Assembly (NCBI GenBank): GCA_009379915.1
Contig: WHSV01000008.1
Coordinates: forward strand, 1 to 64,000
From: Actinomycetota bacterium
Lineage (GTDB): Bacteria > Actinomycetota > CADDZG01 > WHSQ01
Direction: 5' to 3'
DNA: 64,000 bases
Below the pieces are notes generated by a model, which was not told the DNA's origin, did not search any database, and saw only the letters and a program-made list of their open reading frames with translations. Positions 115-8,706 of the stretch are shown one piece after another. The position numbers were made by a program, and so were the translations under genes. Position 1 is the first letter of the stretch; every line of letters begins with the position of its first letter.

Positions 115-187
115 GCCCTCGTAGCTCAGGGGATAGAGCATCGGTTTCCTAAACCGTGTGTCGCAGGTTCGAATCCTGCCGGGGGCA
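115..187 (+). tRNA. tRNA-Arg (anticodon CCU)
   Basis: A complete cloverleaf can be drawn. The 7-bp acceptor stem pairs GCCCTCG (115-121) with CGGGGGC (180-186), with discriminator A at 187. A D arm follows, then an anticodon stem 141-145/153-157 enclosing the loop TTCCTAA with CCT at 148-150, and a T arm containing GGTTCGAATCC. CCA is not encoded. CCU reads the rare AGG arginine codon. The gene is also the insertion target of the neighbouring element: the recombinase frame on the opposite strand ends inside it at position 126, so the tRNA 3' half is the expected attachment site and has stayed functional. Confidence 0.96.
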
Positions 188-1910
188 CGGACAAAAGGGG
201 TGCGCGGCCCCCATCAGGGTGCGTCAGTTCGGGAACCAACGTCACCCTGATGGTCAGCTCGCGTTTCGTGGGGTTGTATCTCGCTTCAAAGTTGAGCGCC
301 GCGAGCACGTCGCGGAAGTCCTGATCGCTCACGAGCTCCCAATCCACGTCCAGAAGCGGCAGAGCGGCCACGAGGGCCTCTGCCGACTCCGGATCGGGAA
401 CTTGTTCCATCTCCTTCTCGGCGGTCTCCAGAGCCCGTTGCTTCTTCGCCCTCAAGGTCCCAAGCTCCTCTAGCCGGGCCCGGATGTCGTCTGCGATCTC
501 GTTGTCCGGCTCCTGAGCCTCCAGGTTTGTCACGAGCCTGCGGATTCGCTTCTTGATGCCGTCCAGCTCGGTCCCCAACCGGTCGACCTCGTCGTGAGCG
601 TTGTCCGCTTCCGGTCCGATCTCAGCAAGGCTCCGCTTCAACGCCTCAATACGGTCCGGCCCGAACAGGTGCGTGGCAAGGAACTCGACGACCTTCTCTC
701 CCGCCTTGTCCTCCCGGAGGTAGACCATGCGCGGATGGTCCTCGGGGACGAGCCCCGAGTGCCGGCGATTGATCTCGCACGTGTAGTACGCGGTGTTCCG
801 GCCTCGACGGATCTTGCCGTGCATACGCAGGCCGCATATCCCGCATCTAAGGAACGACCGCAGCACATAGATGTGCTTGCGGTAATCCTCGTGGCCTTCT
901 GCTGCCTTGGTCACGTTGTCGCGCTTTATGGCCGCAGCGTTGGCGCGGTCGAACATCTCGCGTGACACGAGCGGTTCGTGCGCGGGCTCCTCCGACCAGA
1001 TCCACTTCTCCGGAGGATTGATCTTGCCCCCGCGCCTTCGCTGCCGTCGGTTCCATACCTGATAACCGGTGTACTTGGGGTTGTGCAGGATCTCCCACAC
1101 CGACGACCGGCCCCACATGCCCGTCCGTCTCTTCGGATCGGGAGACTGCGGAGGCGGATAGCGCTCCAGATCGCTATTCAGTTTTCTCTGTAGCTCTGTG
1201 ATCGTGAGGCCCCTGATGACGTAGTCGTGAAAGATCGTCTTCACTACCGATGCCGTCATCGGATCGGGCTCCAAGACCTTGATCCTCAATCCCTGCTGAG
1301 CCTTGTGCGGGTTCGGGTGCTCCTGCTCCGCGAACCGATATCCATACAGAGGCTTTCCGCCCGCGTGCCGCCCCTGCTTGGCCGCGGTCTCGATCCCCTG
1401 GCGCGACTTGACCTTCAATTCGTGCAAGTAGCCGCGGGCAAGGCCGACGTTGACATGGCGCAGGACGATCGAGCCAAAAGATTCCTCGAACGGCTCGTCG
1501 ATCGCCCACAGCCGCACGCCTTCATCCGCGAGTTGCTCCTCGACACGAAACGTCACCGACGGGTTGCGTGACAGCCGATTGATCGACTCGCACACGACCG
1601 CGTCGAATTGACCGGAGGAGGCTTCTTCGATCAGATCGACGAGGCCTCCGTCTCTCGGTATCGGGATGTCGAAGCCGACCAGACCCTTGCCTGAGCCGCG
1701 CGCGTCGAGGCGCATCGCGCCCGACTCGACGTCGTAGAAGTGCGCCACGATGCGCCCTCCCGTTTCGGCCACGGCGCGCTCGCAGTTGGCAAGCTGGCGC
1801 GGCAACGAAAGCGTCGGGTCCTGATTGTCCTCGGTCGAGACGCGTCCATAGAACGCGAACCGCATGCGCGCGTCCGCGACCTTCTCTCCGTATGTCGTTT
1901 GTGCTTTCAT
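126..1910 (-). CDS. Large serine recombinase (site-specific integrase)
   Basis: 594 aa. It should catalyse integration and excision of the island through a phosphoserine link. The resolvase-type catalytic domain is at about 17-165, with the nucleophile at Ser25 in FYGRVSTED. A Recombinase domain follows at about 190-310, then a zinc ribbon (LRCGICGLRMHG) near 355-385 and a charged coiled coil at about 420-500. This order is typical of large serine recombinases. The ATG at 1908-1910 has an AGGAGG site 7 nt upstream and overlaps the preceding small ORF by 4 nt. Roughly the last 20 residues (including PPAGFEPATHGLGNRCS) are the antisense of the tRNA, so the integrated C-terminus is target-encoded. 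Family call is firm; attachment sites are inferred. Confidence 0.93.
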   Translation of the reverse strand: MKAQTTYGEKVADARMRFAFYGRVSTEDNQDPTLSLPRQLANCERAVAETGGRIVAHFYDVESGAMRLDARGSGKGLVGFDIPIPRDGGLVDLIEEASSGQFDAVVCESINRLSRNPSVTFRVEEQLADEGVRLWAIDEPFEESFGSIVLRHVNVGLARGYLHELKVKSRQGIETAAKQGRHAGGKPLYGYRFAEQEHPNPHKAQQGLRIKVLEPDPMTASVVKTIFHDYVIRGLTITELQRKLNSDLERYPPPQSPDPKRRTGMWGRSSVWEILHNPKYTGYQVWNRRQRRRGGKINPPEKWIWSEEPAHEPLVSREMFDRANAAAIKRDNVTKAAEGHEDYRKHIYVLRSFLRCGICGLRMHGKIRRGRNTAYYTCEINRRHSGLVPEDHPRMVYLREDKAGEKVVEFLATHLFGPDRIEALKRSLAEIGPEADNAHDEVDRLGTELDGIKKRIRRLVTNLEAQEPDNEIADDIRARLEELGTLRAKKQRALETAEKEMEQVPDPESAEALVAALPLLDVDWELVSDQDFRDVLAALNFEARYNPTKRELTIRVTLVPELTHPDGGRAPLLSVPPAGFEPATHGLGNRCSIP

Positions 1911-2127: not shown

Positions 2128-3135
2128 TCAGGCGACCACCCCCTCATCGGGTGGTTCCTCCTCATCGCCTGGTGGCTCTCCGATCGGAAAGCGCGGCCGA
2201 AGCGATAGCGGCATGAGCCGTGCCCACCGCTGTGCTCCGTCCTCTGTGAAGCAACGTCCGATGCAGTCCGATAGGTCATAGTCCATTCCCTCCTTTGCCG
2301 GCAGTTCCACAATCGTCAGACGTCGGTCGAGCTTGGGCAGCAGCCCCCACGCCCGGCCGAGCACGCCGCGCTGACTCAACATCTCCTCGTTGGCAACGTA
2401 GAAGGACAGGCTCGCGAGCCTGTCTGCGCGCTTGAAGCGCGCGACCGCCTCGGCGAACGCCGCCGCCACAACCCGCTCCCGTCTGTGATTCGGGACCACG
2501 ATCAGGACGCAGGGAAAGTGCTCGGCGCCTTGTTCGGTCCAATCCCTTGCTACCCCGATGTAGCCCGCGAGCTTGTTCGCGAGCTGTCTCGTCGTCTCGG
2601 TGCCGCGGTCGTACTCGAGATAGAAGTCGAGCGCGCCGCCCGGGTGCAGGTAGACCCCATACCCGTCGGGACGGATCCAGCCCTCGGCGGTCCTGACCGT
2701 GCGCTCCGGCACCCACTTGGCAAGTCCGTGGCCGTCGATCGCGCGTCCGGCCTCGATCAGCGTGCAGAAGAACTCGTTGGCCCCGATGCGGTGCGCGAGC
2801 CACGCATCCTGTTCGCGGTCCTCCTCGTCTCTGACCACGTAGCGGAGCTCGGAGCGCGCGACGCCAAGGAGCGATGCCACAACCTGGGCGCCGCTCTCGG
2901 TCAGCGTGTGATGTCCGGATGCCTTCCCCATCCCTCGCGGTCGGGGCGGGTACCAGGTGTCGATGAGTCCGCGCTGCGCGAGATGCCGCAGCCGGTCCTG
3001 GGCGCGCCGAAGCGACCCGAAGAACATCGCCTTCAGGTGTTGGGTGAGCAAGACCTTGTGCTCGTATATGACGGACAGGACGGCGCGCTCGCGCGCGTCA
3101 AGCCCGCGGATGAGGTCCCGAGGATCAAGAGTCAT
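2128..3135 (-). CDS. Replication-relaxation family protein
   Basis: 335 aa from the ATG at 3133-3135, chosen because AGGAGG lies 6 nt upstream. The N-terminal region (MTLDPRDLIRGLDARERAVL, then LTQHLKAMFF, RRAQDRLRHLAQRGL) is a winged-helix typical of the Replic_Relax family (PF13814) found on actinobacterial plasmids and integrative elements. The middle carries the family's nuclease-fold-like core, with an EYDRGTETTRQLANKLAGY segment. These proteins are thought to act in mobilisation or replication of the element. Here the gene heads the small-ORF/recombinase operon. No FtsK/TraB translocase or primase accompanies it in the window, so the element is either reduced or relies on other elements for transfer. 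Confidence 0.85.
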   Translation of the reverse strand: MTLDPRDLIRGLDARERAVLSVIYEHKVLLTQHLKAMFFGSLRRAQDRLRHLAQRGLIDTWYPPRPRGMGKASGHHTLTESGAQVVASLLGVARSELRYVVRDEEDREQDAWLAHRIGANEFFCTLIEAGRAIDGHGLAKWVPERTVRTAEGWIRPDGYGVYLHPGGALDFYLEYDRGTETTRQLANKLAGYIGVARDWTEQGAEHFPCVLIVVPNHRRERVVAAAFAEAVARFKRADRLASLSFYVANEEMLSQRGVLGRAWGLLPKLDRRLTIVELPAKEGMDYDLSDCIGRCFTEDGAQRWARLMPLSLRPRFPIGEPPGDEEEPPDEGVVA

Positions 3136-3271
3136 GGCCGACCTCCTGGTGCCTCGGTCCCTGATCTTGGGCACACTTCTTCCCGACGGCCTCGACCGCC
3201 TCTCTCCGGGCGCGCGACACCCGAGCGGTCACCACCGTCCTTCCGCGTGCGAATGCAACTGCTAACTGCAA
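3125..3271 (-). CDS. Possible 48-aa leader ORF upstream of the replication-relaxation gene
   Basis: The TTG start at 3269-3271 lies 6 nt after a perfect AGGAGG (3278-3283), and the frame runs to a TGA that overlaps the replication-relaxation start by 11 nt. The product is basic (VAFARGRTVVTARVSRARRE) and not recognised. A competing frame from GTG 3275 ends exactly on that start codon (ATGA overlap) but sits only 2 nt from the Shine-Dalgarno. One of the two may be real and couple translation of the next gene. The ribosome site is the only firm evidence. Confidence 0.3.
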   Translation of the reverse strand: MQLAVAFARGRTVVTARVSRARREAVEAVGKKCAQDQGPRHQEVGHDS

Positions 3272-4018: not shown

Positions 4019-4047
4019 GGAGCAAATTTCTTCGATGTAATTTACGA
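4019..4047. repeat. Left copy of a 29-bp imperfect direct repeat flanking the five-gene module
   Basis: It matches the copy at 8678-8706 at 25 of 29 positions in the same orientation. Shared cores are GGAG, AAATTTC and GATGTAATTTA. It lies 31 bp beyond the stop of the module's last gene. The AT-rich core is partly dyad-symmetric (AAATT...AATTT), as recombination or protein-binding sites often are. It differs from the tRNA sequence, so it is not the recombinase attachment site within the tRNA. Confidence 0.75.
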
Positions 4048-4077: not shown

Positions 4078-4623
4078 TTAGCGCGGCTGGGGCGGTCTCG
4101 CGCCGAAGCCGATGCGCCTGCGTTCGACCCGTTTCGACCTTGGACTCGGAACCCATCCAAAGAGGGACCATGTTTCCGTGATGACGCGTGGCCCCTCCGG
4201 ACCACCAGCATCGACAACCCGAGTCTTGATGAGCCTCCTGCCGCGGTAGGTGTCTTCGATCTCATAGTCCCCGCGTAAGATTCCAGCGACCGCGTCTACG
4301 GCCTGGGTAGTCCAAGGTCGTCCTTGCCCTCCCGCCTCCCACTCGGTGATGTGTTCGTGGGCTGTAAGCCAAGCGACGATGGCCTCATCTTCAGATAGCC
4401 CGATTTCGATCGCGGCCCCCGGCTCCGAGGAATGAACCAACCGAACCTCGATCGTGTTGTCCTTCGTCCTGGCGTGACCACGATCTCTAATCGAACTCCG
4501 GGATCGATCCAGAAGAGGCGGCTGATACGTCTCAAGCATCGTGAGAAGCTCATCGAGAAACGCTGATTGAGTTTGCGTGGGCTCCTCGAACTCCACGGTG
4601 CCGAACCAATCGCCTAGTGCCAC
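4078..4623 (-). CDS. Unknown protein, last gene of the HARE/GHKL module
   Basis: 181 aa, GTG start at 4621-4623, only 3 nt after the stop of the preceding small gene, so expression is probably coupled. The N-terminus (MALGDWFGTVEFEEPTQTQS) leads into a mixed alpha/beta region (IEVRLVHSSEPGAAIEIGLS, DEAIVAWLTAHEHITEW) and a basic, arginine-rich tail. No signal peptide or membrane segment, so cytoplasmic. I recognise no family. Being last in a tightly packed module suggests an accessory or effector role. Its stop overlaps a short hairpin (CTAAC-GACA-GTTAG, about 4068-4081) that could weakly terminate transcription. Confidence 0.7.
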   Translation of the reverse strand: MALGDWFGTVEFEEPTQTQSAFLDELLTMLETYQPPLLDRSRSSIRDRGHARTKDNTIEVRLVHSSEPGAAIEIGLSEDEAIVAWLTAHEHITEWEAGGQGRPWTTQAVDAVAGILRGDYEIEDTYRGRRLIKTRVVDAGGPEGPRVITETWSLFGWVPSPRSKRVERRRIGFGARPPQPR

Positions 4624-4626
4624 GAC

Positions 4627-4907
4627 CTACTCGCCCACGAACGAGCCATCTGGAGTAATGATGAAATCCAATGTGAGTGGCGCGAATGCTCTCCATCCCC
4701 CATCATCGATACTCACCATTACCCGCAGGTCCCCATCCCTTGGGCTGTCCCAAAAGACTTGGACCTCCAGCTGGTACGTGGTTCCCGAAGGCCCCGAAGC
4801 TCGTATGTCTCTTCTCGACCCAAACGTTCCCGAAGCTCCTCGTACGAGAGCTTCCGTAAGCGCGCTATTTGCTCCGCCATGAGACTCCGGGCCTCGGCTT
4901 TATCCAT
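4627..4907 (-). pseudogene. Short conserved-type protein with a single-base frameshift
   Basis: From ATG 4905-4907 the frame gives MDKAEARSLMAEQIARLRK...EETYELRG. The other frame then continues PSGTTYQLEVQVFWDSPRDG, then DLRVMVSIDDGGWRAFAPLT and DFIITPDGSFVGE, stopping at 4627. Together they make a coherent protein of about 93 aa; one G is missing from a short run (CCCC at 4792-4795 on the plus strand). The joined sequence resembles a widespread small hypothetical family that I recall ending in '..DDFIxxPDGSFVGE'. Either a sequencing deletion or a genuine lesion. It lies between the second winged-helix gene and the 181-aa gene. Confidence 0.72.
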
Positions 4908-5018: not shown

Positions 5019-5696
5019 TTACGACGCATACGCGTTCAACAGACGAAGATCCTCGGCGAATCTGGACTTGAGGGTTTCCTGAAACTCCTGAGCGCGAGCT
5101 AAGTCTTCGCGGTCGAAAGCCACGCGACCGCGACCATCGGACAGCTCCTGAAGATCTCGAGCATCAAGTTCTGCTATGGCTGCCCTAATCACGTGATCGA
5201 CGCGTTCGACGCGTTCACGGATAACTCTAGGGGGCGTCCCGGGCGCAACCCCCCAAAAGTGGCCAGCTTCCCGGAAACTCTTGGGTCTTCCTTGATCCTG
5301 TAACCAACTGCGGAAGACTTCATGATCGAGGATTGCCCGCACGCTTTCTCCGAGGCTTCTATCAACCTTTTCTCTGGCGCCCGCATCTTCAGGAGTTAGC
5401 GTCGACGCTCTCTGAAGTCCCTTTACGGTTAGCCGATAGACGCGGGCTCGAACCTTGGTGAGTAAGCCCTGATCGACGAGACCTTTCTGTCCCTTCCCCC
5501 TACTGTCAAGTTCGCGATGCAGACGTTCCGAGTCAGGATGCTCGGCTTCAAAGCCGCGTAGACCGAATGCGGCTGAATCCAACCGCCACGCCGCGACCGC
5601 AAGCTCTTCCATGGTGAAGGTCTTATCGAGATCTCCACCCGAACACTCAAGCGCGGCCAGCAAAATCTTCGCCTTGAGATCGCCTGCGGTGGCCAT
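5019..5696 (-). CDS. Winged-helix protein of the HARE/GHKL module
   Basis: 225 aa from ATG 5694-5696, whose A overlaps the TGA of the upstream ATPase gene (TGATG), implying translational coupling. Residues 1-100 look like a winged helix: a first helix LKAKILLAALECS, a TMEELAVAAWRL helix, and a wing-like GLLTKVRARVYRLTVKGLQR. A distinctive FGLRGFEAEHPDSERLHREL segment sits in the middle. The C-terminal half is helical, with a FWGVAPGTPPRVIRERVERV segment and a charged end. The spacing of these motifs looks like a conserved family, but I cannot name it. Probably DNA-binding; possibly the specificity or adaptor partner of the ATPase. Confidence 0.75.
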   Translation of the reverse strand: MATAGDLKAKILLAALECSGGDLDKTFTMEELAVAAWRLDSAAFGLRGFEAEHPDSERLHRELDSRGKGQKGLVDQGLLTKVRARVYRLTVKGLQRASTLTPEDAGAREKVDRSLGESVRAILDHEVFRSWLQDQGRPKSFREAGHFWGVAPGTPPRVIRERVERVDHVIRAAIAELDARDLQELSDGRGRVAFDREDLARAQEFQETLKSRFAEDLRLLNAYAS

Positions 5697-8017
5697 CAAC
5701 CTGCCTCAAGCTTTCCGCCTTCGACGTACGCACGAAGCTTCGTCCACATGTTCTGGATAGTCTGCACTCTGCGGTTCTCAAGAGCGATCCGATGCGACGC
5801 CCATAGATCCGGGGGTTCGTTCTCTCCTCGCCGAGTGAACTCTTCATCCATCCACACGAGCTCGACCATCTCCATCAACCGTTCTATGTGGAACAGGCGC
5901 CAGAGGCGAGGAGTCTCTGAGCTTTGCTTGAAGGCGTAGGCAGCCGCGGGACTCTGAAGGTTCAACCAGAAAATGTTGTTTACGTAGTCGACCGTCTCTT
6001 GCCACAGCGCGGGCGCATCAGGATTTCCCTCCCGAACGCGTCCGGTCGCCGGATCGACATCTCGATCGGTCAGCTTCAGCTCGGGAAAGCCACCACCCCG
6101 CTTTTCCTTGTCCTTCGACGGAAGGATTGTCACCTCGACCGGGCGACGAGCCCAGAGACCATCAGCGCCTGCAAAGACGTCAGTCCGGCCCTCTTTGTTC
6201 CCGGTGACCCAGCCCACGGATCCGATTCGGACGAGGGCTTGATCCGCGGCGTCGTGGCGCCAGTCAAGGAGGACATCGGTCGACCTATCGCCGTCGTCGT
6301 CCGTTACCTCGGCTGTGATCAAAGCCTTCTTCCCGACCTCAACAGATAGCTCCCGCGGGGCCAAGAAGACGTGCTCGACCAGCCACACGCGAACGGGAAC
6401 GTGCTCAGATTCGAGTGCCGTCCCTTTGACTCGGACCCAGACGTCGCACTTGCCTTTGCCGACTGGTTTCAGCCACTCTCCGTCGACGCTTCCGACCTTC
6501 GGATCGCTGCTGAACCACTCAAGCCTGGGAGAAGGAATCCGATTCCCGTCGCCGTCCAGCACACTCACGCCGAGCTGATAAGCAAGATTGAGGTCAACCC
6601 CGCGTCCGACGTGTAGGCCTCCGTCCGGAACTGCGTATTCGAGTTCTGAGGGAAACCCTGCCTTTGGCTTCTCCGTGCGCTTCCGACGTTTCTTGGAGAG
6701 GTCGTCGCCCCCTTCGCCACTTCCGCTTCCACCCTGCGCTGAGGGAAGGAAGTTGTTCTTGAAGGCGTCCAACTTGCGATTCTCTTCATGGACCTGGTCC
6801 AAAGAACGTTCATCCAGCTCTTGGCGCCGTAGGTCGTTGATGCGCTTGGCGATCTGCGCGATCTTCTCGGCGGCAAACGCGTCGACAGCTTCTACGAGCG
6901 GGCCGTCCTTCGGGCGCTTTCTTCCGGTCTCGACATACCCAGGATCGAGAGCTGGCAGCTCGACGATCCCGTAGACGAACTGCGCTCCACTATTTCCAGG
7001 GGCGAACTCGGCAATGCTCTTCGAGCCGATTGGTTGTTTGCCGGCGCGGTAATTCATGCGCCATCGGGGACGAAGAAGTTTGTATGCCCAATGCATGTTG
7101 TCCCTGGACGTGAATAGCGTGAGACGTCCAGCGTCCTTCTTTCCCCCCTCGTTAGTGGATATGAGCTGATCGTTGGATAGTGGTAGTTCCTCGGGGATTA
7201 CGTGGACCTCGGGCTTCTCGAGGCTTGGGTACGGAGGAATCTCCGGGAGTTGCAGATGCTTACCGCCGTTCATCGACTTGCCATTGTGGATGGCATAGAT
7301 CTCAACCTGCTCGATCACCATTGCGGTCTGATCGTGGCGCAGAAGCTTCCATACGAGGTCGTCGGCGGGGATGCGCTGTTTATACATCTCTGTCGGCGCC
7401 ACGCCCTCGACGAGGGTGAAGGCCTCGCGAGCAACGATGGCATCGCGAACCACGGTCGGAAGATCGTTGAGATCAATCCCATAGGGCTCCAGCGCCGCGT
7501 TGAGCTCTGCCGTAGTCGATGAGATAGATACCTCTCGCCCCTCAGCTTCGTTGGGAATCCAACCCGGGGTTCCACGATCCTCCGATCCCGGCGGGCCCTC
7601 GAATCCTTTGCAGTTACGCTTGCGGTCGTTAACGCCGAGAAACCGACACTGATCGTCGAACATTGCGAATAGGTAAGCCTTCCCACCCTGCCCTTGCGTT
7701 TGTTCCTCATCCAAGCCAGAGCTGCGGTGCGACGCGCTGGGGTCATGCCACACGCTCCAAGCTTCAACGTCATCGATCATCGCCCCGCCCACATCGAGCA
7801 CGGCGATTCGGCCTGCAGACGTGTCGTTGCCGTCCTGGAATAGCAGGACAGAAGCTCTCTGCTCGACGGCGACGTCAAGGCGATCCGTTTGGTACGCACG
7901 ACGGACGTTCTTCAGTAGTTCCGCAAGTCCATCGTCGTGACCGCTAATCCAACGCGTCGCGGCGCGGAGTGTTCCTTCGTTGTGCCATTGGATCGGTTGG
8001 GTTCTCTCAATCGTCAC
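5696..8017 (-). CDS. GHKL/MORC-like ATPase with two Ig-like (BIG2-type) domains
   Basis: 773 aa. GTG start 8015-8017 chosen because AGGAGG lies 5 nt upstream; a longer frame has no ribosome site. Residues 15-130 carry a degenerate GHKL ATP-binding signature: N-box LAELLKN, G1-like VLDVGGAM, G2-like GQGGKAYLFAMF. A transducer-like region follows (VELPALDPGY, RKRPKDGPLVEA). After a Ser/Gly/Lys linker (about 430-460) come two beta-rich Ig-like units at about 480-660, the first with the BIG2 hallmark SSDPKVGSVDGEWLKPVGKG. A helical tail (NPDAPALWQETVDYVNNIFW) ends the protein. No signal peptide or membrane segment, so the Ig-like units are cytoplasmic. MORC/MutL-type GHKL ATPases occur in restriction-like systems; the defence role is inference. 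Confidence 0.8.
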   Translation of the reverse strand: MTIERTQPIQWHNEGTLRAATRWISGHDDGLAELLKNVRRAYQTDRLDVAVEQRASVLLFQDGNDTSAGRIAVLDVGGAMIDDVEAWSVWHDPSASHRSSGLDEEQTQGQGGKAYLFAMFDDQCRFLGVNDRKRNCKGFEGPPGSEDRGTPGWIPNEAEGREVSISSTTAELNAALEPYGIDLNDLPTVVRDAIVAREAFTLVEGVAPTEMYKQRIPADDLVWKLLRHDQTAMVIEQVEIYAIHNGKSMNGGKHLQLPEIPPYPSLEKPEVHVIPEELPLSNDQLISTNEGGKKDAGRLTLFTSRDNMHWAYKLLRPRWRMNYRAGKQPIGSKSIAEFAPGNSGAQFVYGIVELPALDPGYVETGRKRPKDGPLVEAVDAFAAEKIAQIAKRINDLRRQELDERSLDQVHEENRKLDAFKNNFLPSAQGGSGSGEGGDDLSKKRRKRTEKPKAGFPSELEYAVPDGGLHVGRGVDLNLAYQLGVSVLDGDGNRIPSPRLEWFSSDPKVGSVDGEWLKPVGKGKCDVWVRVKGTALESEHVPVRVWLVEHVFLAPRELSVEVGKKALITAEVTDDDGDRSTDVLLDWRHDAADQALVRIGSVGWVTGNKEGRTDVFAGADGLWARRPVEVTILPSKDKEKRGGGFPELKLTDRDVDPATGRVREGNPDAPALWQETVDYVNNIFWLNLQSPAAAYAFKQSSETPRLWRLFHIERLMEMVELVWMDEEFTRRGENEPPDLWASHRIALENRRVQTIQNMWTKLRAYVEGGKLEAG

Positions 8018-8027
8018 TGTCAGCCTC

Positions 8028-8555
8028 CTACGCTTCTCGAACGCGTTTCTTGATCCGTCGCCGCGGTCCATCGTCTCCGGCGGTCGATCGCAGTCCCCAG
8101 GACGCAAGCCCGTACACGCCACGACTCGGCCGTACGAAGCGCGGGTCCCGGCGCATGTGGGCGATCACGTTCGCCTGATCACCGCGACCCGGCAGCGCGG
8201 CGTTCTGCTGCTCCAATAGCCTCATGATCTCGGAGATGTGCAGCGGATGGCCCTCCGCCTCGAGGAGTCGAGCCACCTCATCGACGACTGGATGACGGGA
8301 CCGAGGAAGAGGCGTCCCCTCAGCCGACTTCGCGATGGTCAGGGTCAGTACCGCATCCTCGTCTTCGGGAGGTTCATTGCCTAGGGTAAGAAGCTGTTTG
8401 ATGAGCCGGGCTTCCTGCTCCGCGCGCGCGAGCCTGGTTCGATACGTTGCGATAAACCGCTCTCGCGCTTGGAGAGCAGCCTGAAGGACCTCCGGCGCCA
8501 AGGTCTGGGAGAGATCGTCGCCGTCCTCGGGAAACCAGTCCTCGCGGTCACTCAT
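8028..8555 (-). CDS. HARE-HTH-like winged-helix protein, first gene of the module
   Basis: 175 aa from ATG 8553-8555; an in-frame ATG at 8576 would add 7 residues but lies inside the dyad upstream. Residues 30-70 form a coiled coil (ARERFIATYRTRLARAEQEA). Residues 95-165 match the HARE-HTH pattern: HPVVDEVARLLEAEGHPLHI, then SEIMRLLEQ, GDQANVIAHMRRDPRFVRPS and GVYGLASWG. HARE-HTH domains occur in restriction enzymes and chromatin-type proteins and are proposed to sense modified DNA. The tail is basic (RRRIKKRVRE). The stop is 10 nt before the ATPase start and the two overlap at the ribosome site. Likely the DNA-recognition or regulatory component of the module. Confidence 0.8.
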   Translation of the reverse strand: MSDREDWFPEDGDDLSQTLAPEVLQAALQARERFIATYRTRLARAEQEARLIKQLLTLGNEPPEDEDAVLTLTIAKSAEGTPLPRSRHPVVDEVARLLEAEGHPLHISEIMRLLEQQNAALPGRGDQANVIAHMRRDPRFVRPSRGVYGLASWGLRSTAGDDGPRRRIKKRVREA

Positions 8556-8566
8556 AGTGTAGGAAC

Positions 8567-8587
8567 AGTACACCATGTAGGTGTACT
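8567..8587. promoter_or_regulatory. Perfect 8+8 bp dyad upstream of the module (candidate operator)
   Basis: AGTACACC (8567-8574), spacer ATGTA, GGTGTACT (8580-8587). It lies 12 bp upstream of the preferred start of the first gene. A consensus-like TTGACT reads in the gene's direction at 8618-8613, but no good -10 at standard spacing is evident. A dyad this symmetric between promoter and start suggests autorepression, plausibly by one of the two winged-helix proteins encoded in the module. Confidence 0.6.
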
Positions 8588-8677: not shown

Positions 8678-8706
8678 GGAGTAAATTTCGTTGATGTAAT
8701 TTATGA
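8678..8706. repeat. Right copy of the 29-bp imperfect direct repeat
   Basis: Same orientation as 4019-4047, 25/29 identical, 4,659 bp apart. The core TAAATT-N10-AATTTA is dyad-symmetric. It sits in the 410-bp gap between the divergent module and the ECF sigma gene, so the pair encloses exactly the five module genes. The rest of this gap (8707-8965) shows no gene; it holds a purine-rich stretch and probably the sigma operon promoter. Confidence 0.75.

Follow-up and report, generated by a model that had tools for sequence, protein, structure and literature searches.

The window, a 64,000-nucleotide stretch of Actinomycetota bacterium DNA (contig WHSV01000008.1), carries near its left end an ATPase gene, a small gene that overlaps the ATPase stop codon, and several features of mobile DNA. 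By position in the window, these are:

115-188: tRNA-Arg, overlapping the 3' end of the recombinase gene
126-1910, minus strand: large serine recombinase (Pfam PF00239, PF07508 and PF13408)
2128-3174, minus strand: Replication-relaxation family protein (Pfam PF13814, E 1.3e-32), in the same mobile region
4020-4047, plus strand: 28-bp direct repeat, left copy, identical to the right copy at 24 of 28 positions
5019-5696, minus strand: partner gene, a winged-helix-like protein of about 225-226 amino acids
5696-8017, minus strand: GHKL-Big ATPase gene, 773 amino acids, with the seven segments that follow
5699-6100, minus strand: carboxyl-terminal helical module, residues 640-773
6116-6382, minus strand: Ig-like (Big_2-like) unit 2, residues about 546-634
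6383-6655, minus strand: Ig-like (Big_2-like) unit 1, residues about 455-545
6656-6748, minus strand: linker rich in G/S and K/R, residues 424-454
6749-6901, minus strand: coiled-coil-like helices, residues 373-423
6899-7360, minus strand: predicted S5/transducer-like mid-region, residues about 220-373
7373-7972, minus strand: GHKL ATP-binding domain, residues about 16-215
8028-8576, minus strand: HARE-HTH protein, 182 amino acids, immediately upstream of the ATPase gene
8679-8706, plus strand: 28-bp direct repeat, right copy, which brackets the cassette together with the left copy

The open reading frame at 5696-8017 is a real gene. It starts with GTG at position 8017, with an AGGAGG Shine-Dalgarno sequence 6 nt upstream; it stops with TGA at 5698-5696; and near full-length homologues, at 22-26% identity, are found in other lineages. 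The source genome contains a single copy, and none of 397 genomes of the phylum contains a second. (The lone extra match among them, in L003, is not a copy of the ATPase but a Big_2 protein whose signal resembles that of a lipoprotein.) From genome collections scanned with short patterns or in part, four family members are known, including two that share 98% identity; these contig scans yielded no further relatives, and no phage record matching the ATPase was found.

The amino-terminal domain contains three GHKL motifs in order, all kept in four homologues: motif I, E33-x-x-x-N37 (here E33-L-L-K-N37); motif II, D75-x-x-G78 (D75-V-G-G78-A); and motif III, G109-x-G-G-K (G109-Q-G111-G112-K-A). 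In motif I, the acidic residue that usually follows N37 is missing (N-V-R-R-A, against N-x-K-D in relatives), and motif II is a variant, D-x-x-G-A rather than D-x-G-x-G. Because of these two departures, ATP turnover is not certain.

Curated GHKL profiles gave no Pfam HATPase match to either the window protein or its Ensifer homologue, which are too divergent. The GHKL link was made through profile comparison with a family from the same phylum. A HATPase_c_3 search in relatives brought up one member, a PF13589 protein (L018, E 1.3e-14), with homologues in L068 and L069; the three together form a GHKL (HATPase_c_3) family that lacks Ig-like units. Compared by hhalign over its whole length, the ATPase profile matches this verified family at P 6.1e-5 and aligns motifs I-III in register; shuffled or reversed controls gave P of at least 0.13. 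The mid-region and coiled coil together match at P 2.4e-6 over 77 columns, and five shuffles gave at least 0.14. The amino-terminal domain alone gave P 0.059, and it is the motifs, together with the homology of the mid-region, that carry the GHKL assignment. The best reading is of a cytoplasmic GHKL ATPase, probably of the MORC/paraMORC/MutL type, in keeping with the "GHKL-like ATPase" of an earlier, sequence-only reading of this DNA.

The mid-region ends in an F-x-x-G-x-V-x-x-P-A-L motif common to the Ig-free family. Beyond the coiled-coil-like helices comes the charged linker that the sequence-only reading had described; the homologues are likewise charged at the same place. The carboxyl-terminal module bears a conserved N-[IV]-[FV]-W-[LI]-N motif, equivalent, by position and pattern only, to I-N-x-D-H-P in the Ig-free relatives. 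Homology of the two modules, considered by itself, was rejected as not significant (P 0.39). A full-length AlphaFold2 model built from a three-row alignment reached a pLDDT of 32, too low to support a Bergerat fold, and the coiled-coil segment, modelled as helical, supplied its only blocks at 50 or above. The AlphaFold2 models are unusable, and the fold assignments therefore rest on sequence profiles.

Two Ig-like units follow the linker, as the sequence-only reading had proposed, although the pair spans residues 455-634 or so rather than 480-660; the carboxyl-terminal module comes after them. Six domains from genomes of the phylum were combined into a Big_2 profile; compared with it by hhalign, the family profile gives P 6.5e-4 for unit 1 and P 3.3e-5 for unit 2, and five other regions of the same ATPase gave P 0.28-0.74. 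Thirty column shuffles of each unit reached maxima of 18.4 and 15.3, against observed scores of 25.1 and 31.7. Both units therefore exceed what chance would produce. It is the second unit that matches Big_2 better, although the first had been quoted as the close one. The correspondence to PF02368 holds for the family profile; as a single sequence, residues 547-615 score 16.0 bits against a cut-off of 22.8, a sub-threshold match (E 0.012). The family profile also matches, in phase across both units, Big-like units that stand in tandem in a bacterial teneurin-like protein (E 8e-4). In PHROGs, the stretch of residues 547-615 matches two families weakly (E 0.0014 and 0.0055); both comprise phage tail/head proteins, and the annotation of one includes an Ig domain. 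An AlphaFold2 model of the pair alone is all-beta at low confidence (pLDDT 45), with seven strands and no helix in unit 1 (pLDDT about 47-68). Foldseek with this model found no match at E <= 0.001; its weaker matches include many of Ig type.

Big_2 and other Ig-like modules are usually extracellular, or are carried on virions and phage particles. The ATPase has neither a signal peptide nor a transmembrane segment: its highest 19-residue Kyte-Doolittle mean is 1.07, and the value near the amino terminus is 0.06. With an ATPase domain at that terminus as well, an exported adhesin or phage-tail protein is ruled out, and the protein is cytoplasmic, as first supposed. Proteins with PF02368 domains (adhesins, phage structural proteins, and bacterial teneurin-like proteins) share its tandem, in-phase Big_2-like units, but are typically exported or part of a virion, whereas here the units lie inside a cytoplasmic ATPase.

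The window ATPase and its Ig-free relatives both have a GHKL amino terminus; a predicted S5-like region with the F-G-E-V-x-x-P-A-L motif; a coiled coil, a charged linker, and a carboxyl-terminal module with an IN-type motif; and an adjoining small partner gene. The relatives differ in that they are just about 20% identical to the window ATPase, their partner gene lies upstream rather than downstream, and in one of them (L069) an alpha-CTD/sigma-70 region 4 protein is encoded upstream. They also lack the Ig units: in the slot between the coiled coil and the carboxyl-terminal module they carry a charged low-complexity linker. On the simplest reading of these sequences, a change at a single slot in a common architecture would account for the Ig pair, either by insertion or by loss. 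Of the three roles first suggested for the units, which are binding of a phage structural protein, polymerization and a rigid spacer in an ATP-driven clamp, the last best fits this replacement.

The Ig-free GHKL genes and their winged-helix-like neighbours look like an undescribed operon type. No family name was found for this pair, and PADLOC gave at most a marginal match to the Ig-free relative. At L069:2365-6992, the next upstream gene encodes two RNA polymerase alpha-CTD stretches along with the sigma-70 region 4; a similar-looking sigma-like reading frame lies near the GHKL gene of L068. The same phylum also contains a separate GHKL type (L070:2801-5269 and L072:2666-5119), two proteins of about 820 amino acids with IN-x-x-HP or N-T-A-HP motifs and extended carboxyl-terminal regions.

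The partner gene is tied closely to the ATPase gene. Its ATG overlaps the ATPase stop (TGATG), making the two a translationally coupled pair, and an orthologue in an overlapping reading frame lies directly downstream of the ATPase in all four known loci: the window, Ensifer adhaerens plasmid pCTYH.Ch1_3, and two IMG/VR contigs (L004 and L005). The pairs in the other three loci show 22-31% identity. In all three genomes with Ig-free GHKL genes, these adjoin a protein of similar partner pattern, and the two kinds of partner show a weak, distant match (P 0.0039; eight shuffles, at least 0.12). Matches of the partner to phage records are weak (E 0.09). Its sequence pattern suggests a winged-helix DNA-binding protein. 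(Its conserved amino-terminal domain is also found fused to a four-cysteine putative zinc ribbon, in protein P0010 of a phage contig, L008:7701-8243.)

On the other side, the stop of the HARE-HTH gene overlaps the ATPase Shine-Dalgarno sequence. This gene matches Pfam PF05066 at E 1.5e-5, with a score of 25.7 bits, 0.2 bits under the cut-off of 25.9. Together with the winged-helix-like partner, as judged from its pattern, it bears out the earlier remark that the ATPase sits between two DNA-binding genes. The alphaproteobacterial loci have in its place a small gene of 75-88 amino acids, alike among themselves. The unit of interest is the conserved coupled pair on mobile DNA, rather than the ATPase alone; this the sequence-only reading had missed. 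The pair is covered by nothing in Pfam, NCBIfam, or PADLOC, the last of which matched neither ATPase nor partner.

All four loci are mobile. In the window, the recombinase frame ends inside the tRNA-Arg gene, so that the antisense strand of the tRNA codes for its carboxyl-terminal peptide; this is a sign of integration at the tRNA. Third-position GC is 0.56-0.71 in the cassette, against 0.79-0.81 in the recombinase and relaxation genes. The 28-bp repeat, with two copies in the whole genome where none is expected, is possibly a recombination site or an operator. A small gene at 4614-4907 on the minus strand appears to be frameshifted, with its amino-terminal (MDKAEARSLMAEQIARLRKLSYEELRERLGREETYELRG) and carboxyl-terminal (..DLRVMVSIDDGGWRAFAPLTLDFIITPDGSFVGE) portions in different frames; this could be decay or a sequencing error. 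The Ensifer copy lies on a conjugative plasmid, and L004 and L005 are phage or prophage contigs, one with genes for a GTA-like phage tail and the other with a depolymerase-like gene.

Three of these loci also have homologous N4/N6 DNA methyltransferases (48% identity between L004 and Ensifer). The methyltransferase adjoins the pair in both phage contigs and lies about 4 kb away in Ensifer, with an AAA_5 ATPase and a possible PD-(D/E)XK protein in between. (The latter two, at L002:3830-6813 on the minus strand of the Ensifer plasmid, have with the methyltransferase a McrBC-like layout.) No methyltransferase lies beside the window pair. Searching the source genome for an equivalent of the L004 enzyme gave no full-length match, the matches being to a short carboxyl-terminal stretch, on other contigs. 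No nuclease or helicase was recognized in or next to the window pair.

The preferred reading, for which the case stands evenly balanced, is of an Ig-armed, paraMORC-like DNA clamp that acts with a DNA-binding partner and is probably defensive. ATP binding would dimerize the GHKL domains, and the S5-like and coiled-coil regions would close around DNA as a clamp. Placed between the coiled coil and the carboxyl-terminal module, the Ig pair may serve as a stiff arm that sets the module's reach or docks another protein. The winged-helix-like partner would bring the clamp to DNA or read the state of the DNA. Riding on mobile elements, the module most likely would clamp or loop foreign DNA and so defend its carrier or host; defence is the least secure step of this reading. 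More tentatively, and less likely than not, the pair could be a mobile system of a kind not yet described, directed against phages or plasmids: a GHKL DNA clamp that lacks a nuclease, in which the cytoplasmic Ig pair works as arm or docking site, together with a coupled DNA-binding partner.

The methyltransferases raise a different prospect, in which the pair is the ATP-driven, nuclease-free part of a restriction-modification-like system. A methyltransferase would mark self DNA, leaving unmarked DNA as the target of the pair; the window copy would have lost its methyltransferase or would use another. Besides the repeated proximity of methyltransferase and pair, the account by Iyer et al. offers a precedent in MORC and paraMORC proteins of restriction-modification operons (PMC2292703). 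However, the methyltransferase gene in the phage contigs is convergent with the pair rather than co-transcribed; the distance in Ensifer, and the absence of an adjoining enzyme in the window or a full-length equivalent in its genome, count against this; and the Ensifer AAA_5 ATPase and possible nuclease, which are closer to the methyltransferase, could be its true partners. This explanation is unlikely, though it is the chief rival.

Quite unlikely is a complex for element maintenance or regulation, in which the ATPase and DNA-binding proteins organize or silence element DNA, or control its transcription and transfer, instead of attacking foreign DNA. The mobility of every carrier is consistent with such a role; the alpha-CTD/sigma-70 region 4 protein of L069 and the HARE-HTH protein of the window suggest contact with transcription; and the domain conserved among the partners is also found by itself, behind the Cys-rich putative zinc ribbon of P0010. 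Against it, GHKL-S5 ATPases of known role in mobile contexts mostly act in defence or restriction-modification, and the pair has no conserved replication or partition gene as a neighbour. Very improbable is a sensor of an abortive-infection ATPase whose Ig units bind a phage structural protein: two copies of the pair are in phage contigs and the PHROGs families matched are structural, but those matches are weak and probably reflect the fold, and no toxic effector domain was recognized.

The clamp reading draws on two groups of known proteins. In Iyer et al. 2008 (PMC2292703), MORC and paraMORC GHKL-S5 proteins are placed in restriction-modification operons, with DNA looping proposed, and MORC proper is marked by a GhXhhpXXRhl motif in the S5 domain. 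The paraMORC1-5 types described there resemble the window ATPase in their amino-terminal GHKL domain, predicted S5 region, carboxyl-terminal extension, and mobile or restriction-modification-like settings. They differ in that the window pair has no SF-II helicase, no RE-fold, Vsr, or HNH nuclease, and no fused nuclease or TIR domain; and an Ig pair is not among the paraMORC descriptions in the available text. Because no helicase or nuclease was found, the pair is not a member of the paraMORC restriction-modification types as defined, but it may work like paraMORCs at the level of the ATPase. VcSduA, a GHKL-Shedu paraMORC3, is an anti-phage protein modelled as a clamp, in which ATPase and nuclease are both needed (PMC12137116). 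It too combines a GHKL ATPase with a clamp-like middle region on mobile DNA; unlike the window ATPase, in which no nuclease is recognized, it has a DUF4263 PD-(D/E)XK nuclease, whereas the window ATPase has the Ig units and a separate partner.

The middle part of the eukaryotic protein SMCHD1 contains Ig-like repeats. A literature search found nothing on a relation between SMCHD1 and the window ATPase, and no paper joining paraMORC/GHKL proteins of this kind with Ig-like domains.

The Ig pair within a MORC-like ATPase makes a new architectural variant with a putative clamp function. Since the Ig pair occupies a defined slot in an ATPase of the DNA-clamp type that has Ig-free relatives, its contribution can be probed by deleting it. 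If the two genes together are indeed a defence system, it would add an uncatalogued, nuclease-free one, akin to the prokaryotic relatives of the eukaryotic MORC chromatin ATPases.
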